This document shows positions 8,983 to 60,178 of a stretch of DNA of 64,000 bases, piece by piece (positions within the stretch are counted from its first letter, which is position 1; each line of letters begins with the position of its first letter). The translations under genes and the position numbers were made by a program. The notes below the pieces were generated by a model. That model saw nothing but the letters and a program-made list of their open reading frames with translations. It had not been told where the DNA came from and did not search any database. Source of the DNA: Tubulanus polymorphus (taxonomy: Eukaryota > Nemertea > Palaeonemertea > Tubulaniformes > Tubulanidae); assembly GCF_964204645.1 (NCBI RefSeq), contig NC_134027.1, positions 4,948,485-5,012,484 on the forward strand, written 5' to 3'.

Positions 8983-11900
8983 TTAAGTACAGCAGGTATT
9001 CCAGTTAGAAACTTGTATCCAGGTACTGCCACCATCTTTTGTCACGTACATGCCGTTGTAGTTGGCTAGAATAAAACAAGAATAGCGAAAACATATAAAG
9101 AATAGGACAATTAATCAACCCCTTCACCATGGATGATGCTTTAGTGGCATAACTCTGTTTAACAAAATGGAAAGGATCTATCTTAGGTGGATATGGTCAC
9201 CATTAAATGCCAACAATTAGGCCATATCATGAAGTGCGGACGGATTTGTGATGGATTTGCCTTTTGTTATAGGAATAATCAGGTATCGTGTTGTTAATTC
9301 GGGAGATGAAAATTGGTGAAAGGGTTAATCTACGAAAAAGGAAATGAAAGGAAAATATGGAAATAACATCAAGATATTCGATAAAAAAGAAGTCAATAGG
9401 TCGATATGAAGCAAAACTTTATCATAATGTGGACGACTTTCGTAATTCATTCATAAGAGAGAATGCGAAGAAAACTGATCATGCAAGTGCAAAGGAAAAA
9501 GTAGCAACATCATCACCGTCAGTGCGTCTACAATAGTATCATTCGCGCATGAAGTCGATGTAACACAACCGATAGCGTACAAAGTTATGCCACAAAATGC
9601 ACCAACAAACTGCGTCATGAAGATATTTTAAAGAATAACATTTATTTAATAGCATACACGATATACATGTTAGTACTCAAGCTGATCGAGCATCATAAAT
9701 CTAACGAAACGTTCGATACGAGTATTTCAGATCATTAGTACCAGACCAGACCGAATATCATTATAAGTACCATTTCCTGTATGTAGGGTCTCAATTGCAA
9801 CCCAAAGGATTTCAATTTCAAGAATTTATACGCTGGAATGAATGGTTTGTTTGCTCTTAAATCTGGTGATTTTCTAACTACAACTCGTGGATTACCTCCC
9901 CATTTGTTGGCAACTTTCAAGGCAGCTTCTGGTTGGTTACCAGCCGTTAGTTCCTTCCAATCAACGTTCATGGCTCTGGCTAGGCCTACGGTATTTTGAG
10001 ATTCCATCCATTTTGAAGGCGGTATTGAGCGCCAGGTAAGTCCGTTGTCTTTGCTGATCAGGTAGGCCCTTTTATTCACAGCTATTCCGTATATTTCTTT
10101 GGTTACAGGATCGAAGCCGATGACATTTATGACGGAAGGTTCCAATCCTAAGATAATAGTTCAATCTTACGTAGTTCGTAAATTGCTCAATACGGCCCAA
10201 ACATTTTCAAACATAATTCTTAAAAACGGAAAGTTTCGTGTTAACTTTTTGATTTCTTACCATGGAATTTGGATCCATCGGAAGTGGCGAAGCATTGCAT
10301 TCGCAATTTCCTGCAATAGATACATTGGGCACGTTTATTACCATAAAACATATATAAGTGATATGATAACGACAAATGCAAGGGAAAAATCGAAGACCTA
10401 CTTCAGTGGGTTAGCATCGCAGTAAAACATATTTGTGGCAGTTCCAATAAAACCACGCTCGTAATAGTCTAAAACAAAAATCTAGTTGACAGTGTATATT
10501 TTCTTTTAAAAGGGTGTACACGAGGCAAAGAAAAATGCTTACCTGGATTCGAATCCGGAATTGCAGCTTGTTTCGAAGTACACAAATCTACAAATGAATA
10601 GTATCAATTCCACCCATTATTTCAAACAAGACGGAACGGTTGGTTTCTTTTACTATACATAAAGCAAGTAAACCCCCTTATTAAGAGCTTAGATGAATAG
10701 TCGGGTGAGTTTGGGGCTTTCTTACTAGCATCATCGGGGACATCGGTTGACATGACACATCCATACAATTCAATCTGAAATTCATAATCCTTTCCAGGAC
10801 TTTGAGTTGACCACACTTTGATTCGAATATATCTGGATTCTCGAGGTTTCTGCAGATCCACTTGTCCTGTGTTATCATTAACAGTCGGTAAAGTAAGCTA
10901 CAAAAGTATAGCGTGTAGAGTTATAAGTATGGGGAATTCAACCCGGATAACATTTGGCTAAAATAAAAAGATAATTTCCAACAACAAAATTCATTTTTAA
11001 TCATGAACTCACGACTTCTCCGGCTGACCAACCATCTCCATCGTTGCTGTAGTCAAACTTAACAGATGATATTCTATTTAATGGCTTAAGGTTTCTGAGG
11101 CTTATCTGCGAAACGATCGTGCTATTTCCAAAGTAAATCTCTACATAATTATACTCGCGGAAGGCCGAGCTGCGTACAAACCCAGTCCAGCCTGAAATAT
11201 ACAGTTAAATATGAAAACTTTTCTAAATATTTTACATTCCCCGAGTAATATAGTAATATATTCCTCACCTGTATTTCGGCCGGTATCCATTCTCACATCA
11301 GTAGGCAATTTTCCAGCATAAGCTGATTTAGTGGCCTTAATTTGACAGTCATTGATGCCCCCATTCTGAATTCCGAGCGGCTTATCACAGCCTACAACAA
11401 AGGGAAGATCAATCTAGGTCTATCTAAGTAATTCGTTGACCACCAAATCTTAATTCTGAGTCCATGTTTACCTTTTGATTTGAGGTCCATGCCAGTAACT
11501 TGGATACCAATGGATTGCATACCAGATGGGAACCAAACCCCAGATCCTTCGCTGTGAGCGGCGCGGTCGATCATGTAACTTCCACATTCAGTTGGTATAG
11601 TAACGTTAGCAGATAATGCGTTACCGGGAAGAATTTCATCAGACCTCAGTGAAATCTCGAAGGTGAAATTCACAGAATCCGTAAAAAGTAACATATCCCA
11701 CTGGAAGTTTTAAAAGAAACTGAACATGCTTCTTATCTTTATGACGTATTCTATAGTTTGCAAATTCGCGAAGTGTGCAAAACATACCTTGAATGACAGA
11801 AAATATAAACTAGTATTTTGTTGAGAAGGTGATGTAGTGGCTGATACGAGGGCATCGAATTTCATAAATGGTGGAATGAATATCAACACACTGACATTGT

Positions 11901-14900
11901 ATCCTTCGGCCGTCGATTCATTGTTATGATTTAATTGGGCATCTACAACTACTTTACTTCTGCCAAAAAGAATAAAACAATATGCGCATACACAGATTAA
12001 TCATTAAAGAAACATCAATTCGTGATTGACAGTTGAAAGATGAGTTTCCACTCACAACTTGTCATAGACTTTCGACGTATCCGTTGATGTAGTCAGGTCG
12101 TATTTTGGCCTCTCGTTGTTATTGCGCTCCGCCGTTATTTTCTTGTCGGCTACGACAATAAACTGGTCGAGTTTTACACCGACACTGACCCAATGCGTCG
12201 ACCCCTGTGTATTGATCCAGCTGTCCATCATCCATAAACTAATCTCCAACAGGAATTGGTCATCTTCCAGTTTTGCGTCACCAACTCGGTATGTTGTCCC
12301 TAAAATAGATCAGTACATACGTACGTACTCGGCCATCTATTAGGCTTTTCGAAGATGTTGATTTACACAGATTTCTGATCTAATATAGACACTCACCGGT
12401 ATTTGTCACGATGCCCATCTCTAAGAATGCCCTGTCGGTTTGGGTGTTTGATAAGGTAGAGTTGAAGGTAGGATAATACACATCGTTGTACAGACACGCT
12501 AGATTTTCTCCAGAAGACACCACTTCTACTTTTTCAATGTCCATAACTGCCGTTTTGTTAGCGGGAACCTCAATATCTAATAAAACTTTACTGGTCGAAT
12601 TCACAGGAACTTGTACTAGGACAGGGACGATAAATCGCTCACCGATTCCCACTTTTTTAGCAGTTTCAGACATGTTAAAAACAACCGAAGCGTTTCCCTG
12701 AAAGTAGGAATTTATCTTTATTTAATTTATCTGTATATGAAATTCATGCTTAGTCGAATAGGTGTCTTGAGAATCATTGAACTTTACCTGACTGAGATCA
12801 TTGTAATGGAAATGATACTTACAGATGGGGATGCAACGGGTGTGAATGAATCGATGACAGTAAGAGACCACTTTCCAACCCAAACTTGATCTGAGTTTAT
12901 GTTAGCAAGTACGCTCACATCGAACTTGTCACCGGTGTTTAACGCGGAGCTGTTTCTCAGGCGACCAATTACTTCAACTCGAAGCTATGATTACCAATAA
13001 AGATTCGTGGTTGTCATAAAATAGGAGAGAAAATATACTGTAAAATTTACTGAGACCCGGTGTACAGGTGTAACACCGGTGTATGACGTCTCTAGAATTG
13101 TAATTACCTTATCCTCATCAGGTTCTGTATATATCTGCCAGCGACAGATAGGTCCAATATACAAAGATGCAATGTCGTTGGTTGTTGATCCAGGCCTTCA
13201 AAACACATAAGACATGTAGTTACGTACATCTACCAAATTATTTTAATCAAATAATCAATTAAATCAGTGATAAATTGTACTTACCTTGATGTTATCTTGG
13301 CAACTTTATCCTGCTTCCGTAGACACGGAAAATTCTTTCCAACTTTTACCAGATTTAGGGCGGCAATATCAATATCGGGAGTTGGCGTATCGGGACTAAG
13401 AATCGTAATATTCAGACTGTCTTGGCTCGGTTGATTCGCTGTTATCTCCAACCATAAGCGGAAGGCTTGACCTTTATTGACTTCACCATTTGCCGTCATG
13501 TTTCCGTTATCCAATAATGGGGCTGGTGTACACGAGAAGTCAGGTCGAGTTGCATTCTGCATGAATCAAGCGAACACATTAGAATTATTTGAACAGCACA
13601 GATGGTCTTTTCGTGTTAAATCGTCGCAATGTTCTTTTGTACGTGGATAGATAACAGTATAGACATTCATAGAACTTAAGAACTTACAGTCGTCGCGATG
13701 GTTTCAACTTGACCAGCAGTTACAGAATATTGTTTTGTCTCTTTAATGTTGGATTTTCCGTATTCTAGGTCCGCTGAAATAACGTAGTTTGTATTTTGGG
13801 TAGCCTTTAAGTCCACCTGGTAAATAACCTCAACAATCATTGTCGTATTGTCGAAGGTATCATCTGGGTGTACCCGATCACCACCTAAAATAAAATGAAA
13901 TATCCATTTTACCTAACAGGCAAGAATAAGAAATGCCACAAAACAGCATCCACGGAGTTAAGATTAGGTAATTACCAGGATTTGATATGACTAACAAATC
14001 AATTTCAGCCGTCTGATACGTAAACAAACCAGGGTGTTCAGTATAGTTGGCTACGTCTTTTGTAAAATTGTAACATCGTAAATTATTTCCAACTTCAACG
14101 ATTCTGAGGTTACATAAACCAATCATATCAGATGCTGAAGTTACGGTTAGTTTGTAGTTTGTTGTCGTTTCTGGTGGCAATTTCACTATCAGATTTACAC
14201 CACGTCCAACACCGAGGGGAACACCCGATGTGTCATTTTCTAAGGCTTTGTAGAATAATAACGGCTTCTTCGTCGTCTAGGAAATCAAACGAAAACGAGA
14301 TATCTAGAACGTTCTATTCAATAGTGTAAGTAGAGCCGATTTTATACATTGATATCAAGATAATTTTTTGGATAATGGTGTGACTTACTGGTATATCTAG
14401 CAAGGTATCCTTCAAAATGAATAACGCAACTTGTCCAACCCACAAAACCTTATCTGTGTACCTAACACCGGCGCTGATCCAGTGTTTGGTGCCGTTTGCT
14501 GTGACAGAAGGGTGATCCTCAACTTTTACCACCAATCTGATCACTATCTGATCTTCGGTTGTATTTCCAGTTTTTACAGGAATATTACACACAGTGCCCA
14601 ACGCGACTGCAACGCGGTCATAACTAGAATTATCGCCAGTTCTACGATGCAAAAGAGTATCATATATCAATTATCAATAACTTCCAATTAGTAACTGAGA
14701 TAATATCAATTTGAACATGCGGATAGCTGGAAATCGTTTCTTACTTTGTATGGTAAGTAATTGATTCATTCGCTTTTATTCTATTAAAGCACGGTAGATT
14801 CTTGCCTCCGAAAAGTACTTCAGCGGAGCAGATACTAAACACAGGTTTATTGTCAACGACAGGCGTCATCATTTCGATTTGCATCGGTGCGTATCTAGCA

Positions 14901-17900
14901 TTAGGTTTCGTGGTGAACTCGAATCTAACGTCAGCAAGTGATCCTACGGGCATACGATCTGTGCCATGGGCGTAACGCAGTGTTATCGTTGGAGCTATTG
15001 CCGAATCGTTCTACATGGCGAAATCAGATTGACGTAGAAAAAGCCAAATTACACATTTTAGAATTGAAGTGAAATATTATAAATTATAGTACTGATAGAT
15101 GCTTACCATTGACGCTGATGTATTTGCAGCACCAATTGTAGTAGTACTCTGTCCAACCCATAATCTGTCAGCACCAACACTAACGCCAAATGTCGTTAGC
15201 AGCGCGGCACCAACAACGTTCAACGGATCTTCGGGAACGGTGGCAGTTATTTGAACTTTAACAAGGTTGGCTCCACTTTGGTTGTTTGGTAAGAAGGCAA
15301 AGTTTTTTATTCGCCCCAGACGGAGAATACCTCGGTCCATGCGTGAATCATTTAGTTTTGAGGTTAACTGCGGTCTGCTGTGTGACACACAGGGTACATT
15401 CATTCCAGTATAAGACACCTGAAAATGTAACAACCGTACGTTTTCTCTATAAGATGGCAAAGATTAGAATTATATGATCTTCACAATAGTCTTCGAGGAA
15501 ATATGTTTCGTTGAAACACTGATAACTCAGCAACACCTCATCCCGAAAAACTATTCATCATTTTACCTCCATGTTACAGATACTCATACGAGCAGTATCA
15601 TTGAATGGCGCCAATACTTCGATTTCATAATCAGCTTCCGTATTCAATCCTATATCGATGGTTATCTCAAAGAGCACAACGCTGTCAATCTCCGTTGTTT
15701 GTCCAGTTATAGTGATCATCGACACCGTAGGCTGAACAGTCTACGAAAAATAAACAAAAACCATCAATAAACTTCACTAACTTCTCAATTCTTATTATTC
15801 GCCCACTCTCAATTTCTAGGATAAGTTGGAGAATGACACTTTACAAACCGTGGTTATTGCTGGTTTTGCTACAGGTTTTACGGCTATTTGTCCCGCCCAT
15901 ATTTTGTCCGTTCCCAATTGAACAGCGACGCCAATCCAAAAATCTTGACCAATTAATGTTTCGTTGTCAGCCATTGACATGATGACAGCTACACTTAATC
16001 GATGGTTATCCTCTATCAGATTGCGAGAATCATACTTTCCTTTAGAATAAATAGATGAACGAACACCATAAGTAAAACAGTGTCATTTTCGAGGAACACA
16101 ATCAATAGCAAAATGCGTGGTGCCACATATAACTACTTGAACTCTTCAAACTTTTTTCTTAATATCCACTTCACTTAAAAGGCATTCGTTACTGAGTATA
16201 TTTTACCTCTATTTGTTACGGTGTTCATATCCAAGCGTGATCTTGGATTACATACACTACTGCCGAAGAAATTCTTGTATTGATACGCGTTCTTTGGGAT
16301 GTAATTGTAGTTGAGTCCAGAATCCGCCATCGTGATACCACATACGGACATGACGTCTGATGTATTAAGTGGTGCAACAGCGTCGATGATAAGTTTCGTA
16401 GAATCATCCTTCAAGATCATATCTAGTGTATAGACAGCGCTAGTTCCAATCGGTAACGTAGCAGCACCATTCAAATTGAAAGTTGGAATTGTACCTGTAG
16501 TCTGTAATGTACACGATCATTAGAGACGCTATAAATGGCAGGTCAGTGAAAGGACTTCGCGTCCATCCCCGAATGGTACGTCACCATACCTTATTATCGG
16601 TTTTTGCCGTGAAAGACCACTGCCCGATCCAAATCTCATCTTCATTGTTATATTCAGCTCCGGCACTAACCCAGTAAACGTGATCGAGGACCATCTCAGG
16701 ATTTTCCAATGTTACAGCTTCGAATTCAATAACGATAGCATGCTCCAACGCCTCCGCGTTGCCGGTTGCATGGCTTACTGTACCCACATGTATGATCGCA
16801 CGGTCATGCTACAGATAAAGAGATTGTTGTATGTCCATCGCCGTTAAGCACTTCGGACACCATTATGATGTATGTAAGTTATTTTGGGTAAGAAGCCCTT
16901 TTCTATATCAATTAGATCGGACTATGTTTAAATATAGATATATAATTTCAGACGATTTCCGGAAGAGGTTTCTATGCCACTGACTAAATGATAATGTTGT
17001 TTGAAAATGTTTGAAAATGATATAAGCACATACTTACTGGCCAATCTATTCCCGGTCGCGCATCCATTTGAATTTTCGAATTGAGTTCAGTAATATTGCC
17101 GAGGGAACTTGTGAGTTTGGATCCGATTGATTTTATAATCGGGTTGCAAAGATTCATGATTGTTGTCTCGTTGTCCGGTGTGAATAGCTCGATTGACATG
17201 TCAGTGCTTGTAGCTGGGAATGAGATTGTTAATGAGAATCTCACGGATGCCCCAACCCGTATATCCTGCACGTTTGCGAATTCTCCGATCTTTTCCAGAA
17301 CGAAAGTTACGTTACTTGGCGGAGAAATTACAGCCTGGCAAAAATAGTATCATCCGAATAAAATCATTCTTGCGATCCTTACATATTACAAATGTACGTA
17401 CTAGAAATCGAATGAATGAAGTATTTATTACTTACCCGCCTTTTTCTGCTGTGGGGAACATATGAATCGGACATGAACTGGCTGTCTATAATTTCATCAT
17501 CAGAGGCTCTCATGTGAATCGATGCGGTGTCTTTGCCTGGTATAATTAATAAGTAAACTGAATAACCGGAGTTGATGTTATTTTTGAACGCTAATTGAAA
17601 TAATGTAATGGAAAAATCCCAAAGTTGTAAAATCACTATAAAAGTTTTATTAGCGTATAGAAATATGCCGGGTGTTTACAAACGAAGGGTGGTAGGGGAG
17701 TAACCATACGAAATATTTCTATATTTTGATAATCTTTTTATATTCATTCAACAACTTTTGGATTTATACGCTTTATAACTACATCTGAAACTGTGGTTTT
17801 GTGTGATTCACTATTTGAAATGATGTCCCGGGTATGATGACTGTTTACGATACACATCGCTTGCTTACCGTGTTGATTCGATGCCGTTATACTCAGCGGA

Positions 17901-20195
17901 TACACCTTTCCCCGAATGATCTGGTCTGGCTTCAACAGGATTATAGATCCATCTGGGTTCAGCCCGAACAAGCCCTCGTCATTACCTTCACTGAAAGTGT
18001 ACGTGGGGAAATCGCAATTGCAGTCCGAGTCTCCGCAGTTGTAACCAGCATGAACTGATGTTACGATCGAACCTTCGCGCAGTCCATTCAGGGAAAATAC
18101 AAAGCTTTTGTCGCCTTCGACAAATTTTGGCACAACTAGGAAAAGAATGAAAACTCTTGTAAATCATTTACAAACCGCCAAGTTCCCTATGATAAATGGG
18201 TTTATCCTGTGATCCGTTCTTCCTCTGGTATTTTCTGATTCCTCTTATTTGTACTTAAAAAATGAATCTTTTACCTTTAGATTGACATTTCTCTCCAGTG
18301 AAACAATGGCTGCAGATGCAACTTCCAGTGGCTTCATCGCAGTTTCCATTTTTGCAATCACTAGAAAGGATGGAAAATGGAAAATTTGCGAATGTTGTCT
18401 AGAGCGAAGTTCCTCGAGATACGTGTATGCGTGTAAAGGTAAGCTCAGGTCGACTTACACGATCCGATCAGATCGTCGGATCTAAACGAGTTTGCAATTC
18501 TTTAATCGGGAACTGTTCCGACATATGTCTACTTACGACCGTGACGAATTGATCGATCGTAAGTCGAATCGCAAGGATAGAACAAGTTCTTATTTTCAGA
18601 TCAGATCGTCGAAGTTAATCTGCGACGAGTTATGTGTCACATGACTTTCAGACTCGTCGTTGTCGACCCGAGTGCGACAAATGAATCGGCAATGAGTGGT
18701 CACGTGTGTACTAATGCTGTTCTTACGACGATTTTGTCAGGTGGTAAATCAACATGAGCTTAGTCTGACGCGCAGGACGCTAGGACAGTGAAACACAGAA
18801 ACGCCCGGAAATATATTGCTGTCTCCTACTTCCGTGTTTCTCTGCATCGTGTGCGTTGGGCTTTTGAGCAAAAACGTGTTGGGTTATAGGAGAGAAAATC
18901 TTAAGTCTTTTGCGTAATTTGTCTTGAATTGAATATATATTGCATTTGGGGAAGCTAGCGTTCCACGTGAGACACACCATATCGCAATTAAAAGTCTTGA
19001 AAAACAAAATATCAATAGCGTATTTCAAATTGCCTCGTAGAGTCGGCTATCAATGGCGGGTCTTCACTTCGGGCTGTATCGTCATGGTGACGGAGCTGCG
19101 CCTGTGCGGCGCGTTCCAATTGCAATCAATATTACTAGGTTTTTGCTTGAAAGGTTTCTAGACAGACCGACGCTTGTCTTTTTTTTCAAAGTTTATATTT
19201 TACATCTTAATTGTACTAGCACACAGTGTTTGATATCATGTGAAAAATGTATAACATGTATGATACATCTATTTCAATGGAAACAGCGAAAAGGTTTACA
19301 AGATTTGAACGTATCATCAACTTCTGTAAGCAAGATGTAGGTAGGGTTTTAAAAGTTAATAATTAGGGGTTGAAAAGAAAATCAACGACCTCCCTTGAGT
19401 AATAAAACACATTACCTTTTCTCACATCTTGAAAAGCCACCTACAAGAGATGGAAATGAATGATGAAATTGTCATTTCCAAAATATTGGAAAATACATAT
19501 AAAATGATAATGAATTATTAACAATCAAATCTCTTTCTCCATCAAATCTGGATCTAATTGAATATTTCATCGTTAATAATGAGATATTTTTTTTAGAATT
19601 TACTGGGATAGAAAATTAAACTTTTTCATTTCAGCCGTGTCTCGGAGCCATTGATAATTGATGAAGCAGGTCCTGTTTCTATGGATACATGTGACAATTC
19701 TAATTCCAGTCTGCTAATTATTATACTCATATAAAAACGATGACATTTCATTTTATATCGATTCGCCATATAGTCGAAAGCACTGTATCGTATACATAGA
19801 TAGATAGATCTTTCGTCATTCCAAGATAACCAAATAACTTCTTGTATATTTAATCTTGTGAGAAATGAAGTTGGCTACAGCCTAAAACCATCGTAAGTTA
19901 GTTCCAATTTCAGTACCCTTCAAAAAGTCAGTGTCAAAAGTTTGGGTCAAGATTTTCGAAATTCGGAAAGTGCCCCTCCCCCCTTTCACGGTGAAAAACC
20001 GACCTTTTCTTGAAAAAGAACTGCCCCCCCCCAGAAAAAAAGCTCGACACGAGTATGTATTCCTATACCTAACTGTAGTGGGCGTAACATGATCGAGTTT
20101 AACCTTTCGTGTTTCTGATATTACATACCTGCAAGGACTAGCGCCACTAAAACACCGCCAACTAAGAACACTAATCCGATTTGCTCGGGGTTCAT
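8983..20195 (-). CDS. Large secreted modular protein B: EGF-like, cadherin-like, furin site, seven repeat modules, discoidin, Asp-box
   Basis: Thirty exons, in coding order: 20129-20195, 19416-19440, 18275-18360, 17869-18135, 17436-17536, 17038-17334, 16590-16808, 16207-16501, 15849-16039, 15567-15740, 15107-15418, 14745-15010, 14389-14641, 13976-14276, 13688-13884, 13285-13556, 13108-13195, 12823-12984, 12397-12697, 12056-12299, 11788-11959, 11472-11700, 11269-11391, 11013-11191, 10726-10897, 10543-10587, 10402-10468, 10261-10310, 9896-10147, 8983-9065. All phases match; 5490 nt, 1829 aa. The signal peptide starts MNPEQIGLVFLVGG. An EGF-like segment (six Cys) follows, then a cadherin-like domain (GLFGLNPDGSIILL), then a basic site HSRKRR. 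Seven modules end in motifs such as YWVSAGAEY...IWIGQ. The discoidin domain starts GCDKPLGIQ and ends RYIRIKVW...ELYGC. C-terminal Asp-boxes are SKDNGLTW and TKDGGSTW. No membrane segment, so probably secreted. Likely an adhesion or matrix protein (inference). The 25-nt second exon is the weakest call. Confidence 0.85.
12056..17334 (-). repeat. Seven tandem beta-rich protein modules in gene B
   Basis: Exon groups for modules 1-7 are 17334-16590, 16501-15849, 15740-15107, 15010-14389, 14276-13688, 13556-12823 and 12697-12056. A typical module has an opening beta-rich stretch ending in P..T or P..S. It then has hydrophobic strands around TP or AP, a Cys in SICS or NLCN, VG.NL.C with a second Cys, and LG.V.N. 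It ends with YWVSAGV.Y...IWVGQ. The two Cys suggest an internal disulfide. Every boundary between modules is a phase-0 intron, as expected for units that can duplicate cleanly. I do not recognise the fold; an immunoglobulin-like or DUF11-like sandwich is possible. Confidence 0.75.
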
Positions 20196-21351
20196 TTTTA
20201 CATTTCTCTAGTGGCAACCTGAAAGAAATCTATTCTACTCTTTGAGCTGCCAAATACACCAATGATATTACAACAGTAGCAGAAGAGAATTTGATTTATC
20301 GTGATTGTCGCATGATGAAAAACGCATGCGCAGTTTTTACTGTCGCTTTAACGCAATAAATCTATCAGAAGTTAGAAAAAAACAATTAAAACATGTTCAG
20401 GAATGATACTAGAAATACGTGGACATTTATACAGTTTGCGAAGTATGCCTCGGTGATGTTAATAAGCCACCTATATTAGGATATCGATTGCATAAAACTC
20501 GATACCCAGTCAGTTATAGCTTAGACACGTTAAGGCAACCACATGATGCTTCAATGCAATTATGATACCCCCAGACCATTTCACCAATCCAATGTCTGAT
20601 TATACCATAATAAACCGCTTTAATGTGAAACCGCGATTTCTTTCGATTTGAATTATCCGTTTTTGATTTGAACTACTCTTCGACGATACACGTCACTAAA
20701 TGTTCGGGAATGCGCGTAAGTAATATGAGTTAATATGAATTATTAATTGGTACAAATGTGATAACATTTGAATCGTACACGCAGACTCAGTGTAAGCTTG
20801 AATAAAATCAAATTATCTGATAAGAAAATGATCGAAAATTTCATGATTTACCTTCTCTATATTTTGTGATCTTCCGCTAGATTTTGATCCTTTAAATTGC
20901 GTTGAAATTCAACTGTGCACAGCGGAACGGGATCCTGCGATGTTTGTTCGTCAAGTCTATTGTCCGACGTAAAGCAGTTTCCTGACGCTGTTTCCAAGGT
21001 AACGATACGCGTTCGTCCGCCATTAGCATGCGATTGAGGTTGAAGGGTAATTTACATCATTTAAACACTTCACACGGGACGTTAGGCTATCAGTACTGTC
21101 ACATACGTAGTACACAATCCGTATATTTCAATAGATTTTCGTTGTTTCAAACGAAACATTTGCCATCCAAACCTTGGATCCATTTTACTAACTCTATGGG
21201 AAGGGAAAAATACAAACCAGCACTTAACAGGCTGGAATTTCACACGTAATAACGTCGATTTTGATCGGTGGTAGAATAGCCAAACTCTGGCGTGGAGAAC
21301 AGATAGTAAGATGAAATCCCACTATATACAGATTTAAAAGTTTTAGTATCA

Positions 21352-21468
21352 AAATGTATTCAATCAACAAATTAAAATGACATGACATTTTTGTTTCCAC
21401 ACCTGACGATGAGCTTTAGTGAGAGTTCGAAACGTCGCGTCATTCTAATGTTTTGATCGAATACATTC
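21352..21468 (+). repeat. Penelope-like element remnant with hammerhead-ribozyme-type core
   Basis: The segment has CTGACGA at 21403-21409, a possible short stem (GAGC pairing with GTTC), then GAAACGTC at 21429-21436. This is the order of the conserved core of hammerhead ribozymes. Imperfect inverted arms flank it: AATGTATTC at 21353-21361 matches GAATACATT at 21459-21467, and the pairing continues inward. Penelope-like retroelements are known to carry hammerhead motifs with GAAACGTC in their terminal repeats. No reverse transcriptase frame is present, so this would be a solo terminal fragment. Stem II is weak, so catalytic activity is unproven. Confidence 0.4.
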
Positions 21469-21480
21469 TTGAACTCATAA

Positions 21481-21537
21481 GGCCCCGCACACGAGCCGAA
21501 AACTGCGTACGCAAAATTCGCTCGTGTGCGGGGGCCT
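21481..21537. repeat. GC-rich palindrome
   Basis: A near-perfect 57-bp inverted repeat with arms GGCCCCGCACACGAGC and GCTCGTGTGCGGGGGCC around a short AT-richer centre containing TGCGTACGCA. It is far more GC-rich than its surroundings and could extrude as a cruciform. It lies directly beside the hammerhead-like fragment and is probably a small MITE or part of the same element. Confidence 0.6.
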
Positions 21538-22267
21538 TTAAATCTTTTATCTTTAATTTGATCGGTGGTCTTTTTCATCAATTAGCAATATGTGTATACC
21601 GCAATATTCACGGATGATTCAAATGCCCGGGAGCTTCGTTGCTTGTTTCTGCATATTAATTAATTCAGTAGTGTTTCGGAAATCAGTCCGTTTTAACCCA
21701 AACCGCTATGTACAACCACGCCATCGGGACAATATTCCCATCACCAGGGAAACATACGTCACGCGCCAAGCAGAAGACATGAGAAAGCGCCCAAGCCACG
21801 ACGACAATCGTTTAAATGAAATCGATGCAGAAATAAAACGATTACGATGAATTAACGTTTACGTAGAGATTTATTCTGATGCAAAGACTAATAATAAGTA
21901 AACCATAGTGCTTCTTGAATAACAAAACAAAATGTGTGGACGGAAATATATTGTCTGATTATTTTACATATATACGCGAAAATACATTTTACATTGAAGT
22001 AATAACTTTGCAGAAAAATGATGTTAAACGCTTATTTAAGAAAAACCCGTGAAATCATCTGTACAGTTTTACATTATATGATGATGGTGTTATTTGCTTG
22101 CTCGGATGCTACGTTAAACATCCACCATATTGTAACCATTTCGAACATTCAATCGAGACATTTTCGTTTGTTTCCTTCTCCCTTTATATGCACAAAATGT
22201 AATAAGGAAATATTCGAAAGACCCATCATAGATTTACATAAATAACTTGATCATAGTTTAACAGCAG

Positions 22268-25200
22268 TTATGTTTCCTCAGTCCATGAACCAACCATAAC
22301 CCATTGGTTATCGGGCTGTTTCCATACATACAACCCTTTTTGTGCCACTGTAAAAAATATCAGTTATCATGATTAGTGAAGATGCAAATTGCTATGGGCA
22401 AAACATCGCATGCAGTTCTCTTTCTTCCACAAAGATGAGCTTGTTATGCCTTTTAGGGAGATGATGAATTTATTGTATATTATGATACAACCTAATATTG
22501 CCTTGGGGGATTAAGCAACTGTTACAATAGAGTATTTCAAAGCACTGATCATCATCATAAAAGCCCCTTATGGTGCATATGAATATAGCGGACGAGCATC
22601 TCAAGTCTCACCTCCTATTTTAAACGAAGAATTTATATCCAGCCTGTAGCTTGCAAGCGAGGCATCGCCTGGTGTTTTCGTACCCCAATCTTCGAAAGGG
22701 ACGACGATGGCGTTTTTTAATTGGGATAAATCAGCAGATATTTGTCTATACTCATCATCTGAAATCGAAAACCAATTATCACCACCGTCATCACTGCGCA
22801 TTCGTGTTCGTCTGTTACGCGCCAATCCGAATAGTTGTGAAGTAACGTTGTCCAGGAAGTTGATGTTGCGTATATTGTCATCGACCGCTGTAAGCAAAAG
22901 AATAACAAGATATTCAATAATACATGATCGACACAATATAAGATAGACAAATTTCGTTCATGGATATATCACGAGAAACTTAACATTGCTTTTAAAAAGG
23001 AGCCTGTGATAGTAAATCAAGTGACTTAAAAATAACTCACCAGTCCAACTGACTCCGAAATCCGAAGTAAATGAGCATGAAACATACGTATTCCTGAAGA
23101 AACGTGAAAACAAGTTTAAAAGAAACCTTGCCACAATCATCAAATTAGAAGCTATATGTAATAGATTTCTCACAAAAATCGAAGAAGCTTACTCCACGTC
23201 GTTCACCATACAGACATAGATAGTACTGTCTCTTGGGTTGAAAAGGTATCCTCGTTCATAAGATGTGATATTCTCTGTTTGTGTATCGCTGCTTGAGCAA
23301 ACATCTAGAAGCATAGGTTTACAAACACTGCATTATCAAAACTAATATTACCTGTGTCATACCTATATGCTATTCACAAAAGTTGATAGGATAAAACTTT
23401 CTCACATACGAACGCTTTTATTTAATGAACGCGCGGATTGATTCTTACCTGATTGGGAAATGTCCGAGGTCAATGAACAGCCGAACAGCTCCATTCTTAG
23501 AGTGAATATTTTGAGGTTATCGCGATTAGACTTGGGTATGAGACGAATATATCTGGCTTCTATAGCTTTACTTTCCAAGAGTACATCGGCATATCTCTCT
23601 GCGTTAGTAGAATTATCGAAAGATACACTGAACACCTAAAAGTCATAGGTAAGTCATAGTCAAGACATTTCAATTACTTCATTCAGGTAAAAGAATCCAA
23701 GAAGTTTTTAACAATACCTTGGGTGTATCCGGTGTTGAGTCGTCAGCCAAAGGCCACCACAATATACCTTCATCGCTGTAGGATAGTGTGAAGGTTTTGA
23801 TGTAATTCGAATAGTCATTCGAATCTGGTTGGATACGTATCTTGGAAATGCGAGTTTTGTTACCGAAATAAATCTAAAATAAAAAGCACTGTCTAATTAA
23901 ACAGATTCATTATTCCGCGGTGCTATGATGTTATCTATTAGAAGGAATACCTGAATAAATTCGTCACCAAAGAAAGGCGGTGGTCTGGGCGCAGATTGCC
24001 AGCCGCCAGTATTCGCACCATATCTACCAAACCATGGTTTAGAGGAGCCTGCATTTGATGATGAGGTTATTTGGCAGTCATTTATTGTAAGGTCTTGCAT
24101 GCCAAGTGGGTCCGAACAGTCTAAATGTCAAAATGCACACTTTTAGATTATACGAAAGAGGTGTTAAGCTGAGATCTCCAGAAACCGCTTACAACACGTA
24201 TGGTGTAAGCAAAATCTAGGGTGTTTTCAAAACGATTAGACTTACCAGGCATAATGACCGTAAATGACACCGTTGAAATCGGAGTTCTATAAAAGGTAGT
24301 TCCTAATTTATATGTTGCTTCTATAGGTATCACACCGGTCAGATTTCCAGATTCCATTGGAATGGTTCTATTTGGATTTATGACTAGTGAAACATTGAAT
24401 GTACAGTTATTCGTGAAAAAGAAGGTACTTGCTGCGTACTGAAAAAAAACGAAAATGAGGGATTGTTAATCTGATTTAATCAAAAGGAGCTTTTTTTAGA
24501 AATGTACGAGTAAAAATGTTCTTACGCTTATTTCGACTCCAGCACGGTCAGGTAGAACTGTCATCTGTCGCTGACAATGATTTGAAGTGTCGTCTGACAG
24601 TACATCAGAGTGATACGGAATTCGTATGAATACCTTGGTTGATTCAGCATGGCGACTTGACAGTGCTGAGTGGTTGACACATCCAGATAGTTCAATTACA
24701 TCACTAAAATGCATTTTGTCATGTATTCATAATGTAAAACAATAAGCGTACTGAACTCGATCAAAAATATGAACATTTCTTGGTTTTATCATCCAGATAT
24801 ACTTCCAGAAATTACTGAGATGGTTATACATTTTGACCCCTCCTCGATAGATGATGCACGAGATCCCCTGATCTCTTATTAGCATCACTGACCTTCGCGG
24901 AGGTAAAGATAAAACACCTACCCGGAGTAATAAAGTTTATCATCATTGTTTATCACCCATAGATACACATCGAGTATGGGTATCTCCGCGCCTGTCCTCG
25001 ATATTATTAGAGACTGGCTACTTGTCGCAACGACATTGCTTCCATCTGTAAGTTTTACATCGAAGGGTACAGTAGCTTTGTCGACGTTCAAAGAATGGTC
25101 CGCAACCTGTACGTCAAAGTTGAACCACCAGATGTTGTTTAGTTCTTTTGGCGTTTCCCATTGGTAGCGATTATATATTCCTTGAAATTTAAGTCATTCC

Positions 25201-28200
25201 GATATATTCATATTATATCATATGTTATATCAATTATCTACCATCAAAGAAAGCATTAGGCATATAATGAAGACCGCCTCACCATATGGAATTGGATGGT
25301 TTTCTTGAACTAAATTCCTCAGCAAATGATTTTTTTCGTGGACGAATCGCACGTAAGAAGATGGTGAAGTTTCGGTTTAATGAGATTCACCTTACCTGTA
25401 TTTGTAATTACACCTGAACTGACAGATACGGCTTTCATCTGTGTCGATAAACCAACTGGTGTGAAATTAGGGGTTATTTCGTCTGTTCTGCGACATCGAT
25501 TGAGATTTTTTCCGTAGTTGATCATCGTCACGTTAGAAACTGTCAATCGAGCCAATTGACTATCCACCGGGAGGGTAACTTCAACACTGACGCTTGAAGT
25601 CATTTCAGGGAAAATTACTCGCACCATCCAGGTCGCCTTCTGGCCAATCCCAACGGGACTACCAGTGCAGATTGGTGTCACAGAAAATGTTGGGGCCATG
25701 TCACTCTGAGAATCAAAAGGAGCAAAATCAAGATCTCTCATTAATCCATAGATACGATCATGTATCCTTATGAATCAAGCATACTATATAAACGTAACAT
25801 ATATAGCGTTTTCTTATGGTATTTCCTTACCTCGTTAGGTAGATTTGGAGATGTTTTGCCGATGAATTCGGCTGTGCCAATAAACAACTCAGTATTTTCC
25901 ACCATAAGGGACATAGAAACCACGAAAGTAATTCCATCCGAGAAAGCAACGTCACTCGGTAATTCAATCACTGATTCAACCCTTATCTGAAACCACGATT
26001 GATTATTAGTCAAGTTACACCTCTTAAATCCACCTATTGAGAAAATGTACAGAAAGCGATGATTAGAAATCTAATCGTTTCTACCCTAAAACACGGAACC
26101 TATAAAAATCTGCCATATCTTCCTGCACTTCTCCGGAGCCTGCAGGGACTTGGGTCCAACGGGGTTCACGCCTTGAGAACTCTTTTTGGAGATGGAGCGT
26201 CCAGTTGAGATAGGGATTCGAGGGAGACAAGTATAGTCAGATGAAAATCTTACCAATCCAGTGACGAAAATTGCACCAGATTTTATACTTGCCTTATTTT
26301 TTGGTTCGTATTCGTCAAAAATGACGCTTTTATCCATGTTTGAAACATCACCAAGATTCAGACGACCCCTATTATATTTAGTACTTGAAGTTGGTTTAAA
26401 GTACGTTTTCGACGTAGTTGGATCGTAAACACACGGTAAATTCCAGCCAGCGGTCACAACGTTAACGCTGCATACATCCAGTTTGCCGCTGTCAGGTGCT
26501 ACGACGTCCACCTTCAGTGTAGCTATAGTTTTTGGAGGGACGAAAATTTCCATTACGATAACAGCACTTCCCCCCTCAGCTATGTATGTACTGGTTGTAT
26601 TCAAGTCTGACAAAGTAAAAAATCTTGTCTTCTGAGTTGTCTAAAATACAAATCGGCGAAAAGCATATCTAAAAATTGGCAACAATTGAAGATTTAATGA
26701 AAGGTGGAAAATCCTGAAGAATTCCTTTACCGAGGTGCCTACTTGACCGGTTTTGGCCGTTATTTCGTGGTTGGTAACAGTAGTCTCATTCCCCAGGCTG
26801 ACGACAGTTGCAAAATAATGTTTAGACATGTCTTGTACGGATTGCCCGGAACGAATCTGTGCTGCCACATCGATATCTATTTGATTATCGGTTGAGCTGT
26901 GACGCACCGCAAATGGATCGAGAACTAAAACAATCACATAATTCTGAAATCTCAAAATTCAATTTTCATACTCCGCTGTTGTACTTGAGTGGTAATCATT
27001 TTTACGTACCAATATTTGTAAGGTTGCCCATATCAAGTTCCCCAATGGCGATATGCGTGTCATTGGTTAAAGATTTGTAGATGGCTAGAGGATCAATGCA
27101 GATAAAGTTTTTACCACGTGTAGAGATGGCAATGCGGCAGATCTGTACGGTAACATTGCCAGTAACACCAGACACTTTAGTTGGTATCACACTACGTTCT
27201 GCAAAATCTAGCCTTGTGCGGTAGGCCACTACACCACCGATATTAGTAACACTATCCACGGTTGTTTTTGTGGACGAGAAATTCGGCTTCTTTTCGTCCT
27301 GCAAACAGAAATTCGACCATCATCTTTTCTTATCAACAAGCTTATTACCATGCCATATCATTAAATAGATTCTTATTTAGTCACGAGCTTTGAATTACCA
27401 CAACATATTACATTCTACAACTTGTTAAATTGGACACTTGCCGGTTTTTGGCCTTGTTGGTTAAGATCTTGCGTCATTCGGCTATGACCAATCCAAAGTC
27501 TGGAAGTCAAATATTTTACCCCAGCGGCCAAATAAAGGGGGCTTGTATTATTCTCTGTTGAGTTATTAGTTGAAACTGCTCTTGGTAAGCTGACTTCGAC
27601 AAGGAATCGTAGAGTGCTTTCTTCCCTTATCGAAAATATGTCCCATAATCCTAAAGCGGAACAAACTTTCCATAATGAAAATATAACAGATAAAACTTAA
27701 ACTGCATAGTCTGAAAAAACCTCTGCTTACCGATATTACTCACGAGTCCAAGTGCAATATTTGCACGATCGTATTCCGCATCGAAATTCGAGGACTTCAT
27801 TACAATATTGACGTCATCCGTCAGGATGTATCTCCCTTGATGGACAATGCTTACATTGCATATTGTCAATAAAGGTTTCAGGTCAACGTAAGGGGTAGCA
27901 AGTTCGATCTTTTCGATATTGTAGATGGTGACGGGAGGTATATAAATATCGAAGAAATAAGCGGCGCTGCCATTCACGGGTAAGGCATCGTCAGCCATTA
28001 GAGTCCTTAAATTGAATTTTGGCGACTGTAGAAAACAATTTAAAAAGTAGATTAGAGAGGTAAATAAGAAGGTTTGAAGAATTCATCTCTTATTTGACGT
28101 AAATCTACATCTCTGTAAGCCTAACCGCGGTTAGTGGCTTATCCACGGTTAGGCTAACCAGCTAAGGGGCCGCACAAAATCGGATTTTCGCCTAACCACG

Positions 28201-31200
28201 GTTAGCGCTAACAGCATTTTCCTGCGCCCGCCCCTGTTTTGAAAAGGAATCTTTTACAAATATATTTTCAACGGACACTTCCAGGAATATGTGGTACCTT
28301 TAAAGTACGTATATGCGTCTGTATAAATCAAACATCTGTCTTGAAAAGCAATTCTTTACGTATTACCTTTATAGTATATGCGTCTCCCTCCTTCGCTGTT
28401 ATTCTATTTTGACCGACCCAGATGTAATAACCACTATTGTAACGGACTCCGAAAGTTACCCAATGTTGACTGTCGCTCGACACCAAAGAATGATTTAAAA
28501 GTTTAGCTACAAATTCAATCTGTATGGTATTATCATCTGGTCCAGATTTGCGGTTGACATTAGAAACGAGTCCTAAATCCCACTTAAGATAATCGACATT
28601 CACACTGCCATCCTAAACACAAAATCAGCGTTCATTATTAGTTAGGAAAGTTATTGAACCAGAGTCTGACTGTTAGTAGACAAACCGAATTTACCTGAGT
28701 CACGTTGATTTTAGTACCGTTGCCCAAGCACGGATAGTTATGGCCTATATGACGATATTTAGCACTTATCAGTGACATAACTGCAGAGCCGTTAAACGGC
28801 ATGGCAACTTCTATCGTATATCTGTGGGTAGAACCAGCTGGCAGAGTTAGATTTAGGAGGAATGCCGTCCTACCTCCGATGGTTACGTTTTCGATCACAG
28901 TTTGGGCATCGATGACAGGCTGATTTGCCTATGAATGAAAATACAAGATCAGTAGATTCTGGTTGCGAAGTCGAAATTTCGAATTACTAACTTCTATTAA
29001 TTTAAACCTAATTTTCCTGCAGGAGATATTTACCAGGTTATCCCAGTTTTTCTCGACAGTCGTGAAAGTCTTGCGTGATGTGAAAATCAATGTGTTGTCA
29101 ATTAGAACCCCAACACCGACTTTGTAGTCACTATTATTGGAAACAGATGAACTATTGTTCAGCGTGTAGGCTGCCTCTATCACTATCGTATTTCCAGCAT
29201 CACTAGTGTCATTTGGATAACCTTATGTTAAATAAATTCGTTTATATCAATTCAGAAATATGAGGTTCGTGGAGTTAAATGATAGATTAAAATGAGTAAT
29301 TACCTGTATTCACAACAGTACCCAGGTTGATTTTAGAAACCATCTGATAACCAACTGAACTGTTGAATTCTTCTTTTGTGGTGTAAACTCCCTCAGAAGC
29401 CATGCAGCCATAATTCTGTCCTGCGAAAAACGACACAAAAATACTTCTGACAATGTAGTGGTTTTCTAAGTATATAGTATTATTGTTTTATTGCTGGATT
29501 TCACAGAACCGATACCGAACACCAAAAGCCACTTTCAAATCAAGTTGGAGATTGTGTTTGCAAATCAATCTAGCCAAACACTAAAGATTTTGAAATAATT
29601 CATTACCTAATGAGTCGACATGAACTTTGCACAATCTGATCACTTCGGTGTTATTTGATGGGGTGTAGAATTCTACGAGAACTGTATTATACAGATCGAA
29701 CAGTGTCAATTCCAATGTCCAAACGCCAGTCTCTCCAATACCCAACGAATCCGGACCGCTGAAGTTGTATTTCTTCGCAGTACTTGAAGGTTCCTGTATT
29801 CACAAAAATGCATTCACATATCTATATTATTCGGTGAGTAGTACAAGTAATTCTGATGGATTGATTGATTAAGGCTTATGTAGACTTACAGGATTATAGT
29901 CGGTGTAATTGAATTGGTACTGGGTGACCCATACTTTCTTCTGTTCATCGAAATTGGTTCCCGCACTCACCCAGTAAGTTGACGAATTTGTGGAAGTTGG
30001 TTTTAAAACCGTAACACTGAATTTCATTTTAATCGAACTGCTTGATATTTGTGCTGAATCCGTCCCAATGTTTTTCACGCTTGCTATGTGCATGATGGCA
30101 TCGTCGTACTAAATTGGTGGAGTAACGCACAGCTATTATCATATGGCAATCAGAGATACATATTTTTCAAAATCCCTTTGATTTCATTAAGATTATCATA
30201 GCAATTATTCGTTTTATTGATGAATTAAGTTAGCCCAAGATATACGTGATTGTATAATCATTATATGTAGATACGAATGTCATACGAGTGATGTAATTCT
30301 TTGACGAATAAAGATCAAACATCAAAATATCATATGTAAATGATCATTGTCTTTATTGGTGGTTCAAGTCAACTGAGACATCGGTGTCTATGAATTCACC
30401 AAAGAACAAGATCCAGTTTCTGGTCAATCAGTCTGTTATCAATCTTTACATACGCGTGTTTATAAATCTTATGAATTGTGCATCCCGCTATAATCACGTA
30501 TACCTAACTCGAGCTTTGAGTGAAGTTATCGAATGATACAACGGCAAAAGAAGTAATTATATAAATAGAACATTAGAATCATAAACCATCTAACCGTACC
30601 ACGGAGTCACCAAAAGAAGACGACATGACGAATCCAATACTGGTCATATTCGGGGATTCGAAATTTGATCCAATTGACGTCACTACCGGCTTGCAGAGAG
30701 AGAATATCCGTTCACTGTTCATTGATGGTGTGAATATGGCGACGGTCATAGCTGTTTCCATCACAGGCATAGCTATCGTCAATTCAAACGTCAACACGTC
30801 ACCGGTCTGTGCTGTAACCTTGTTTAAAGTATTGCCAGTTTTTGTTAACGAGAATTCCGGCGATGTTGGTATAACCTTTGGAATATATAAACATATATTT
30901 GATGTTATGTCAAATTTTATTTTCAATTCATCAGATAGTCAAACAAAATCGTTCATATTTCTACAATAAGAGACCACAAAATAGATACCACACGCAGCTT
31001 TCGGAAAAAGAACCTTGCAAAAACAGATGAATATTTTATGAATGGGAGTTCGACCTGTTTAGCTGAAACCATTGGTTGCGAGAGGAAGATCGCGGCAACG
31101 TCTCCACCTCCCTCAACCCAACTAGCAGTACAAGCACGATAATGTTCTTGACGATGGTGGCTTCGTCTACTAGACAATATTTACCTTAAATTCAAACTCA

Positions 31201-33712
31201 ATAACTTGCGATTGTATGATAAATCGACTGAATATTATTAGAATAAATACGATATCGATGACAACAATGAATTATAGTAATAACCATGAGCATTTCATCA
31301 TTCGTAGCTGCAGTGGATAGTGATATAGAAATTACTTCGGAAGATTGTGCGTGATATTTTCACAAATGACGACAATACTTGATGCTGCAATGGGACTCAT
31401 TTCATATGTCTGCAAATATATATAATATATATAGTGAAGGCTCATAATATTAATGTATCGGTCGTTTGCATAATTCATTCATTGAAGGAGTTTTCTCGAG
31501 CATTCTAATGGAAATTGCTAACTGCAAAACAATTAGTGGCAATCCAGTTGTAATTTGACTACATGTTACATTTACGTATGGTATCTATTTCGATTGTTGT
31601 TTGCTACACATATTTATTCCAGAAACACGGTCCTCCTCCAGGTCAACGATACGCGAAAGTTTGTGCGGTAAAAATTTCCTGTTGGGAATTATTGCCTCAC
31701 TTGATATTTTTCAGATATTCATATTACTCCAATATCCGATATTGTGTGTTGTCAGTCATACATACATCGGTTGTAGCATTGTGTTTCGTATTCTATAGAT
31801 AGAAATGTAAAATAGGTACATATTTGAGATACACATACAACACATATATATATACGTACGTTTATTGACCGTTTTGATCGGTGATGCGGTATGTTTGCGT
31901 CATGTGCCAAATAATCTTGGAGCGAAGATTCATCGATTGATAGAAGTTTTCTTCCCACTGCTCTGTTTGCCATGCCATAACGGGATATTCGATCGAATTC
32001 GCCTTCAAATTTAACGATCACAGTTGCCAAATCAGTATCTTCGGAATCCAGTTTATTTCGGACCCCGATTTCTAAGAAGGCCGACTTGGTGTTGAAATCC
32101 CCCGGCAAATACTTCAAAACGCCAGTCGTTGCATTTATTTCAAAATTGGCGCCTTCGTTTCCTGAACGGATACTGAAATATGGTGCAGCACAGATGCATT
32201 CGTGTTTTTCTGTGTCACAAGTATTGCTATCAGAATCGACGACCATTAATCCGCTATACGTGTAATCATTCTTCTGATCAACAAGTATTGTATGCGTAGA
32301 TTTCTCAAATTTCGGTCGATGTTTATTTTCTATAAAAGCAAAAACGGAATCTCGTGGCACTATTTTATCATGTATTGTAATTGACATATTTTCTTAAAGT
32401 AATTAACCGACTTTTAAACCGCATTAATGATTGTAATTAGCACTTTTCCTAGCGGTTTCAGGACCAAGAAAGCTTACAAACCTGATATATTACAAGCGGT
32501 ACCGGACCAACATTGATCATCACAGACGCATGCCTTACCCTTACAAACTCCATGTTCACAAATCACAGATTCAGTTCTTAAGAAAAATAAATGAATTTCA
32601 TCAACTTTTGCTTATGTTTTATTTTTAGTAAGATGGAAAGTTTTTCAATCTCAGCAACATCAACAAGAAACAAACAAAATGTATTTTTTACATTGTGTAT
32701 ATATATAATATATATATATATACCTTATACACGGTTTCCAGCAAGTATCGCATAATGTGGTTTCATCAGGACATGTACAACCGATATTTGGACATTTTCC
32801 TTCATACTGGATTTCGCACGTCTCTGAACAAAGCACCACTAAAAATGCCACCATATGATACAATTGAAGAAAAACTTAAATACATTACATCATCTACTCC
32901 TATGTTTCATCATTTTCAAAAATTCATTTTCTATTTATCTGTAACATTTGCTATGAATTTTAGAAAACTATCGTCGTGTCACAATTCTATTTACAAAATT
33001 GATTCGTACGTGTCATCTGGATACGTAATGACAACATTCAGGATCCGTTCTAAATAGATACAAATCGCACTACGATCAAAATTAGTTGATCTTGAATTAT
33101 TTTGACCAGTTTGACTTGCAAGTTTAGCAATACTATAATTGGTCCTTTATTTTGAACAGTGAATATTCATTGAAAACAATAATATTGGAAGTGATCTGGG
33201 GTAAGCCTTCGAGTGTCAAACCGTCGCGGGAAGCCATACATGATTTATCATGAGTGTCCAGCCACGTTAACTGTAGCATATATATGAACATATATTGATA
33301 TTGCGCAAATGGAAGGATAAACTAATGAATAATATAGATATTATTTATTTAATCAACATGTCTCCTTCGACTCCCTTCAAAGAATGTTACTGAGACATAA
33401 ACAGCGCATTACGTTGAATAAGTTTCCTCTCTCTAAGGTTGATGATTATCTATAGCCCTCTTTTCCTATACCATTTGCGTGGAATTGACAACCAGAATTA
33501 TGGTTACCGCTGAACATTTAACGTCGTTATCAATCGATTTGATCTCTTCGAGTCTTAAGCTTTTTTCGAAAAATTTCAGTTTTTCTTGTTTCATATTTCT
33601 ATCGCTGGAAGTTTCAGAAATGACAACGAGTATTCAACTTACCGCAGTTGTGCACGAAAAGCAATGCACATAATCCTAGTACTATCGTTTTAAAGGTCTT
33701 TCCAAAATTCAT
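22268..33712 (-). CDS. Large secreted modular protein A: Cys-rich/EGF-like, cadherin-like, furin site, seven repeat modules, discoidin, Asp-box
   Basis: Twenty-eight exons, in coding order: 33643-33712, 32724-32838, 32482-32576, 31860-32329, 30600-30875, 29890-30108, 29607-29793, 29304-29420, 29034-29221, 28695-28928, 28367-28612, 27731-28025, 27442-27650, 27010-27298, 26731-26924, 26293-26640, 25831-25986, 25396-25705, 24922-25180, 24526-24703, 24246-24438, 23951-24120, 23718-23873, 23449-23635, 23193-23304, 23041-23093, 22612-22887, 22268-22347. Total 5682 nt, 1893 aa, phases consistent; two introns use GC donors. A signal peptide (MNFGKTFKTIVLGLCALLF) is followed by two Cys-rich segments and a cadherin-like domain (FEINATTGVLKYLPGDF) ending at HHRSKR. 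Seven modules and a divergent unit follow. The discoidin domain runs from CSDPLGMQDLTINDCQI to RYIRLIP...ELFGC, then Asp-boxes TSDFGVSW and SDDGGDNW. No membrane span is seen. It is colinear with gene B and on the same strand, so the pair arose by tandem duplication. Function is not known; adhesion or matrix is inferred. Confidence 0.85.
24922..30875 (-). repeat. Seven tandem beta-rich protein modules in gene A
   Basis: Modules 1-7 occupy exon groups 30875-29890, 29793-29034, 28928-28367, 28025-27442, 27298-26731, 26640-25831 and 25705-24922. They share the gene B pattern: P..T stretches, a Cys near TIC or SLC, VG.N.PC, LG.VSN and a closing WVSAG...VWV or WVTFGVRY...IWVGQ motif. The first and seventh modules match their counterparts in gene B better than they match their neighbours. 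This suggests the array existed before the gene duplicated. Many N-x-S/T sites fit an extracellular location. Confidence 0.75.
28121..28215. repeat. Palindromic CTAACCNCGGTTAG repeats in a gene A intron
   Basis: Several near-palindromic copies of CTAACC(G/A)CGGTTAG lie within 95 bp, at 28121-28134, about 28143-28152 and 28191-28205. A GC-rich spacer containing GGGGCCGCACAAAATCGG sits between them. The block lies in the intron between coding exons ending at 28367 and starting at 28025. It is most likely a small foldback or MITE-type insertion. Confidence 0.5.
32695..32722. repeat. TA-rich simple repeat
   Basis: A run of TA dinucleotides broken by single A bases. It sits just downstream, in coding direction, of the 5' splice site of the second exon of gene A. 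No function is evident. Confidence 0.7.
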
Positions 33713-56152: not shown

Positions 56153-56953
56153 TATGGTGGCTGATAAGGGCCATAGCGTAAAATTCCTGGTATGTAAATG
56201 AGGGCGCCAGAACGCCAGAACGCCAAAACGAAAAAAACGTACAATTTTCTCTGAAAGTTCGTTTTGGCGCGCCAAAACAACGAATATTCCGTTTTGGCGC
56301 CCCCGCCAAAACGAACTTTCATTTTGGCGCCCCCGCCAAAACAAACTTTCGTTTTGGCGCCCCCGCCAAAACAACGAAAAACGTCGAAATTTCTCTAAAA
56401 GTTCGTTTTGGCGCGCCAAAACGGAGAATATTCCGTTTTGGCGCCCCCGCCAAAACAACGAAAAAAAGCGAAATTTCTCTGAAAGTTCGTTTTGGTGCGC
56501 CAAAACAAAGACAATTTCGTTTTGGCGCGGTTATTTCCGTTTTGGCGCCCCCGCCAAAACAAGCATTCAACCACAGTAAAATTATTTTTCAATTTGGCGC
56601 GTTGATCTTGTGTGTAATTTGCATAAATTTGCATATATGAAAATATTTTACGTATATATAGAATTATTTTACGTGGTTTAAAGTTCGTTTTGGCGGGGGT
56701 GCCAAAACGGAATATTCTCCGTTTTGGCGCGCCAAAACGAACTTTTAGAGAAAATTGGACGTTTTTCGTTGTTTTGGCGGGGGCGCCGAAACGAAAGTAC
56801 GTTTTGGCGGGGGCGCCAAAACGGAATTTTCTTTGTTTTGGCGCGCCAAAACGAACTTTCAGAGAAAATTGGACGTTTTTTTTCGTTTTGGCGTTCTGGC
56901 GCCCTCATTTACATACCAGGAATTTTACGCTATGGCCCTTATCATCCACCATA
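56153..56953. mobile_element. Foldback element built from GTTTTGGCG palindromes
   Basis: About 800 bp with long terminal inverted repeats of about 110-125 bp. The left end reads TATGGTGGCTGATAAGGGCC and the right end is its complement with one mismatch, ending CCACCATA. The arms continue through ATTCCTGGTATGTAAATGAG and a GGCGCCAGAACGCC block. The interior is an array of short palindromes and hairpins. GTTTTGGCGCGCCAAAAC occurs at 56261, 56405, 56721 and 56835, mixed with GTTTTGGCG(CCCC)GCCAAAAC variants and an AT-rich centre. Frames through it encode only repetitive FWRAKT/FGAPKRT-type strings on both strands. I read these as by-products of the repeats. No transposase is present. Confidence 0.75.
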
Positions 56954-59900: not shown

Positions 59901-60178
59901 AAATATTGAAGTTCGACGGCTGGATGCGTTCGGCATAGAGGCACGAGGGTGGCACCCGCCATCCATACAGCCCAATTACTGACAACATATGAAGAATCAT
60001 TAGGACACAGTATGGAAACACTGGCTTCATTCAAATCATAGCCATTTGCTTGACACGCATCCAGAATTTTCAATGAAAGAAGCGTGCTTCGTTCTAATAA
60101 CTGTTGATATGTGTGGGATCCGGACTCATCGATTAAAGCACAGCGCCAACGCCAGTCCTCTGCAAGTTTAAACACTGG
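56368..60178. repeat. Tandem duplication, unit 1 (3812-bp period)
   Basis: This segment recurs at 60180-63990 with a constant offset of 3812. Every exon, intron and flanking frame I compared is the same length and sequence in the two copies. Only two substitutions were seen, next to the left boundary at about 56382-56385. The unit spans the right part of the foldback element, the ACSF3 3' flank and seven ACSF3 exons. Confidence 0.85.
56954..57960. other. ACSF3 3' flank, unit 1
   Basis: About 1 kb between the foldback element and the ACSF3 stop codon. It should hold the ACSF3 3' UTR; no other gene is evident. The same sequence recurs at 60766-61772. Confidence 0.5.

Follow-up and report, generated by a model that had tools for sequence, protein, structure and literature searches.

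A tandem pair of diverged paralogues encoding large, predicted secreted proteins with seven copies of a module absent from Pfam-A

Two paralogous genes in the window

We analysed a window, the whole stretch of DNA under study (64 kb, GC content 38%; C3:4948485-5012484), from an animal genome of 267.8 Mb in 77 contigs. Searches for COX1, mollusc haemocyanin and haemerythrin returned no match, the one for haemocyanin having been run without a positive control. Two genes lie in tandem on its minus strand. Their models were obtained with a small splice-aware predictor trained on obvious coding pieces and then corrected by hand, and their splice sites are predicted.

22268..33712 (-), gene g1: 28 exons, 1897 aa; splice-consistent open model, no internal stop
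8983..20195 (-), gene g2: 30 exons, 1829 aa, paralogue of g1; splice-consistent, no internal stop

The g1 model starts at the ATG at 33712, and the g2 model ends at the TAA at 8983. A GC-AG intron in g1 at 27442 (-), with donor GCAAGT, was inferred from the reading frame and from the paralogue. A sequence-only reading had placed two genes on one strand between 8983 and 33712 and assigned 1829 residues to g2, both of which hold; its figure of 1893 residues for g1 does not, and the gap to 1897 is a small splice difference. The first output of a simple predictor, which joined g1 and g2 into one gene, was rejected on the g1 stop at 22268 and on g2's own signal-peptide exon. Three weak predicted g1 exons past the furin site (31792-31766, 31409-31336 and 31121-31055) had poor splice scores and were dropped because g2 joins its furin exon directly to module 1.

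The two proteins match from end to end (BLASTP E = 4e-103, calculated when the g1 model still carried 56 extra residues), and in the final models 27% of the 1745 aligned positions are identical. Exactly the same position and phase in g2 are found for 12 of the 27 g1 introns, while most of the others agree within alignment error, many of them within a few residues. Two diverged loci would not otherwise keep the same architecture and the same introns, and this comparison is therefore strong evidence that g1 and g2 are real genes; the tandem pair that had been proposed is upheld and, judged by its sequences, is the product of an old duplication. It is accordingly highly improbable that the models are artefacts that fuse several smaller genes or divide a single one in error. 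The splice sites were predicted from DNA alone and the small exons at the 5′ ends have weak splice scores, which would suit such an error, but the same full architecture, intron positions and phases at two diverged loci are not expected of separate genes. Genome-wide, just these two loci were found (queries: g2, one module pair and selected g1 parts, with which weak matches can be missed), and beyond them the whole-genome searches returned sub-threshold discoidin similarity only.

The adjoining genes in the window, which encode an SLC6 transporter, KCTD1/15 and an acyl-CoA synthetase, are ordinary animal genes. Positions 56368-60178 and 60180-63990 form a tandem duplication that is 99.95% identical over 3811 bases and includes a large part of the AMP-binding acyl-CoA synthetase gene. 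The next 10 kb contain no third copy, and the duplicate is either very recent or a false duplication of the assembly. A single open frame of 594 codons at 37112-38896 (-) is without any Pfam match.

Domain anatomy of the two proteins

Both proteins have the same order of parts: a signal peptide, an EGF-like segment, a degenerate cadherin-like domain, a furin site, seven modules of about 165 residues, a divergent eighth domain, an F5/8 type C (discoidin) domain and a C-terminal Asp-box region. Domain-by-domain tests bore out the order given by the sequence-only reading in both proteins, to which the short eighth domain is an addition, and our confidence in this anatomy is high. The N-terminal parts are as follows.

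33643..33712 (-), g1 signal-peptide exon (MNFGKTFKTIVLGLCALLFVHNC): hydrophobic N-terminus; phase-1 intron equivalent to that of g2
32482..32823 (-), g1 Cys-rich/EGF-like segment, two exons: sub-threshold match to EGF_Teneurin PF23106 (E=0.007); cysteine pattern
31860..32329 (-), g1 cadherin-like domain with furin site HHRSKR/S (predicted cut at the slash; residue 242): two-sequence profile; conserved convertase site
20129..20195 (-), g2 signal-peptide exon (MNPEQIGLVFLVGGVLVALVLA): the protein's most hydrophobic 19-residue stretch; phase-1 intron after it
18275..19440 (-), g2 EGF-like segment, two exons: cysteine pattern; weak EGF_laminin, EGF_2 and EGF_Teneurin matches
17436..18135 (-), g2 cadherin-like domain with furin site HSRKRR/A (predicted cut at the slash; residue 182), two exons: same basis as in g1

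Secretion, as had been claimed, is supported by the signal-peptide-like N-terminal stretch of each protein; apart from this N-terminus, neither g1 nor g2 has a stretch hydrophobic enough to span a membrane. In both proteins N-glycosylation sequons exceed expectation by about four standard deviations (43 versus 24.9 ± 4.4 and 34 versus 20.3 ± 3.9 in shuffled sequences). A secreted protein with many N-glycan sites, whose architecture is conserved despite strong divergence, could also be an egg coat, gamete-recognition or larval-envelope protein, with the divergence of the paralogues reflecting recognition specificity. We consider this role quite unlikely, as Pfam finds no ZP or other egg-coat domain and age alone also accounts for the divergence.

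The EGF-like segment is only weakly confirmed: no EGF model exceeds its Pfam cut-off (best 16.9 versus 24.3 bits), though the cysteine pattern fits. For the cadherin-like domain, single sequences gave weak matches (PF00028 E 0.041; protocadherin-15 E 0.1) and the Pfam Cadherin cut-off was not reached (14.7 versus 28.8 bits in g1, no match in g2). A profile of the two paralogues, when searched against the PDB, returned 33 matches that are mostly cadherins or protocadherins, with CELSR1 as the best (E 2.5e-5), followed by cadherin-23 (CDH23; 1e-4) and then PCDH15, cadherin-8 and desmocollin-2, which agrees with the earlier assignment. By its sequence the domain is degenerate; the calcium motifs LDRE and DxNDN are absent from it when the sequences are read by eye, it stands singly with no tandem EC repeats, and a short Cys-rich loop is inserted in it. 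An AlphaFold model of the cadherin exon (pLDDT 35) was unusable.

An R-x-K/R-R convertase motif lies at the domain boundary directly before module 1, in the same place in both proteins, and it is the only such motif that g1 and g2 have in common. The furin-type site of the sequence-only reading is thus recovered as a predicted site in each paralogue. It is followed by the repeated part of the proteins.

24922..30875 (-), g1 seven modules of ~165 aa (residues 246-1429), two to three exons each: 14-copy alignment; Z-score matrix
24246..24703 (-), g1 divergent eighth domain (residues 1430-1553): Z about 5-7 with its g2 counterpart only
12056..17334 (-), g2 seven modules of ~165 aa (residues 183-1372): 14-copy alignment; Z-score matrix
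11472..11959 (-), g2 divergent eighth domain (residues 1373-1506): resembles its g1 counterpart only

The alignment and the Z-score matrix both give the expected count of seven in each protein, with pairwise Z-scores between modules of up to 30. The consensus of the 14 aligned copies is PxF...IG...L...IE..P.N...C...G.N..C...DR...LG.V.N.G...I..E...VS.GV...WVGQ. For several modules, notably 1, 4 and 7, the copy of the same number in the other gene ranks among the best matches, which is not so for others (e.g. g1 copy 3); the array was therefore at least partly present before the gene duplication. Two semi-conserved cysteines, as seen by eye in the alignment, occur together in about 6 of the 14 copies and just one of them in the others, and therefore some may be free or may bridge between molecules. 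The eighth domain, present in both proteins, is shorter than the seven modules and has no Pfam match in either g1 or g2.

No Pfam family matches the 14 copies consistently, and no PDB sequence match is better than E 1.1; the module called unrecognised is still without a match in either library. Individual modules gave weak Pfam matches (PDDEXK_5, DUF7441 and others), which are not the same in different copies and were treated as chance. When one module's first exon was modelled together with the remaining thirteen copies, the result was all-beta, with a mean pLDDT of 67 and values of about 80 in the core strands. This partial model resembles pilin shafts, cohesins and integrin alpha chains with Z-scores of 6.5-7.4, which is the range of common arrangements, and Foldseek gave an E-value of 0.02 at best. 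The first-exon model suggests that the module is an Ig-like beta-sandwich of common arrangement.

The C-terminal parts complete both proteins.

23449..24120 (-), g1 F5/8 type C (discoidin) domain: PF00754 E=2.5e-14, above curated cut-off
22268..23304 (-), g1 C-terminal Asp-box region (TSDFGVSW, SDDGGDNW): motif count; 29% identical to g2 counterpart
10726..11391 (-), g2 F5/8 type C (discoidin) domain: PF00754 E=1.4e-8, above curated cut-off
8983..10587 (-), g2 C-terminal Asp-box region (SKDNGLTW, TKDGGSTW): BNR PF02012 E=0.00039, below cut-off; motif count

The discoidin assignment is secure in both proteins (53.9 and 35.4 bits versus a Pfam curated cut-off of 28.2). Across the genome we counted at least 60 exon matches to the F5/8C domain, several of them clustered (e.g. 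C4:23.77-23.80 Mb and C10:12.53-12.54 Mb), and discoidin proteins are therefore numerous in the source animal. The Asp-box assignment is carried by motifs: each protein has two full boxes (S/T-x-D-x-G-x-[STN]-W) within its last ~170 residues, compared to 0.006 expected per protein, while the BNR and Sortilin-Vps10 models remain below their Pfam cut-offs (20.4 versus 27 and 16.7 versus 33, respectively). The region also has weak BNR, sortilin and sialidase matches. Judged from the motif count, two full boxes per protein are too few for a complete propeller.

These C-terminal domains bear on two further explanations. F5/8C domains in both proteins, together with sialidase-type Asp-boxes, are typical of glycan binding, and this is a duplicated family whose two members differ greatly (27% identity), as could be the case for a secreted pattern-recognition or aggregation protein of innate immunity (coelomocyte or microbial agglutination) in which the head binds microbial glycans and the rod bridges cells. 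Such a role is unlikely in our estimate, since it involves no known immune domain combination, the genome searches found just two copies rather than a large variable array, and it leaves the furin site and pro-piece unexplained. The best PDB match of the g2 discoidin domain is the neuropilin-1 b domain (E=4.5e-6), and convertase processing is common among guidance factors; a guidance-type signalling ligand or co-factor, in which either a cleaved EGF/cadherin piece or a neuropilin-like discoidin head binds a receptor, could be read from both. We regard it as very unlikely, because F5/8C similarity at such a level carries no ligand specificity and seven structural modules better suit a spacer.

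Proposed function and related systems

Our preferred reading, to which we give an even chance, is that g1 and g2 encode secreted, N-glycosylated modular pro-adhesins of the extracellular matrix or of an adhesive secretion. In the proposed mechanism, the signal peptide would take the proteins into the secretory path, where a furin-type proprotein convertase would cut between the EGF and cadherin-like part and the first module. With such a cut, the EGF and cadherin-like N-terminal part would therefore be a pro-piece, either removable or non-covalently held. The seven (plus one) tandem beta-sandwich modules would form a stiff glycosylated rod that spaces the discoidin and Asp-box head from its partner, and this head may bind a glycan, lipid or protein ligand. 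From the anatomy we infer cleavage, glycosylation, the rod shape, ligand binding and an adhesion or matrix role alike.

Two published systems offer functional leads by analogy, and not by family membership. Marine adhesive secretions repeatedly contain discoidin and EGF-like domains (PMC12472103), and the propeptide of N-cadherin is removed by furin convertases, which exposes its adhesive end (PMC8783681). Like N-cadherin, a classical cadherin with a furin-cleaved prodomain, g1 and g2 place a cadherin-like domain and a convertase site before a tandem beta-sandwich rod (PMC8783681). Unlike classical cadherins, they have rod modules that the Cadherin model does not recognise, they lack a transmembrane or cytoplasmic part, and they add discoidin and Asp-box ends.

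Other systems resemble single parts of the proteins. Neuropilin b1/b2 are the closest solved relatives of the discoidin domain (E 4.5e-6), but no CUB or MAM domains and no membrane anchor were found in g1 or g2. Sortilin/Vps10 and sialidase propellers share the S/T-x-D-x-G-x-[STN]-W motifs and give weak matches, whereas g1 and g2 have two full boxes in ~170 residues, no catalytic domain and scores below the curated cut-offs. The partial fold of the module is like the beta-sandwiches of integrin alpha calf, pilin-shaft and cohesin-type domains (Z 6.5-7.4, within the range of common arrangements), to none of which does it have sequence similarity. Secreted discoidin adhesion proteins (MFG-E8/lactadherin, EDIL3, echinoderm nectin and sea-star Sfp1) are similar in being secreted and in having a true F5/8C domain. 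To our knowledge, no protein of this type has a cadherin-like pro-piece, a furin site, seven beta-sandwich modules and a terminal Asp-box region.

Significance of the family

Neither the architecture nor the module had a match in Pfam-A, the PDB or open-access papers, and within these three sources the statement that no named family has this order stands. Consequently, g1 and g2 probably represent a real, undescribed family, whose members may already be in databases, listed as uncharacterised. Its general type, that of modular matrix or adhesion proteins, is familiar and each of its recognised domains is already known; what is unreported, in Pfam-A, the PDB and the papers, is their combination and the module that is absent from the sequence libraries. 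A more specific proposal is possible but rather doubtful: a new animal gene family that joins a new ~165-residue beta-sandwich module to a furin-gated pro-adhesin design, in which a fully secreted adhesive rod of non-cadherin modules carries a discoidin/Asp-box head and is under the control of a cadherin-like prodomain.

The 14 aligned copies provide a clear definition of an extracellular module that is absent from current Pfam-A, and this module is linked to a convertase site and to two types of ligand-binding domain. If the gating by the pro-piece is true, control resembling that of a cadherin prodomain would operate in a secreted, rather than membrane-bound, protein, and a candidate family of matrix or adhesive proteins would be added for an invertebrate-type genome.
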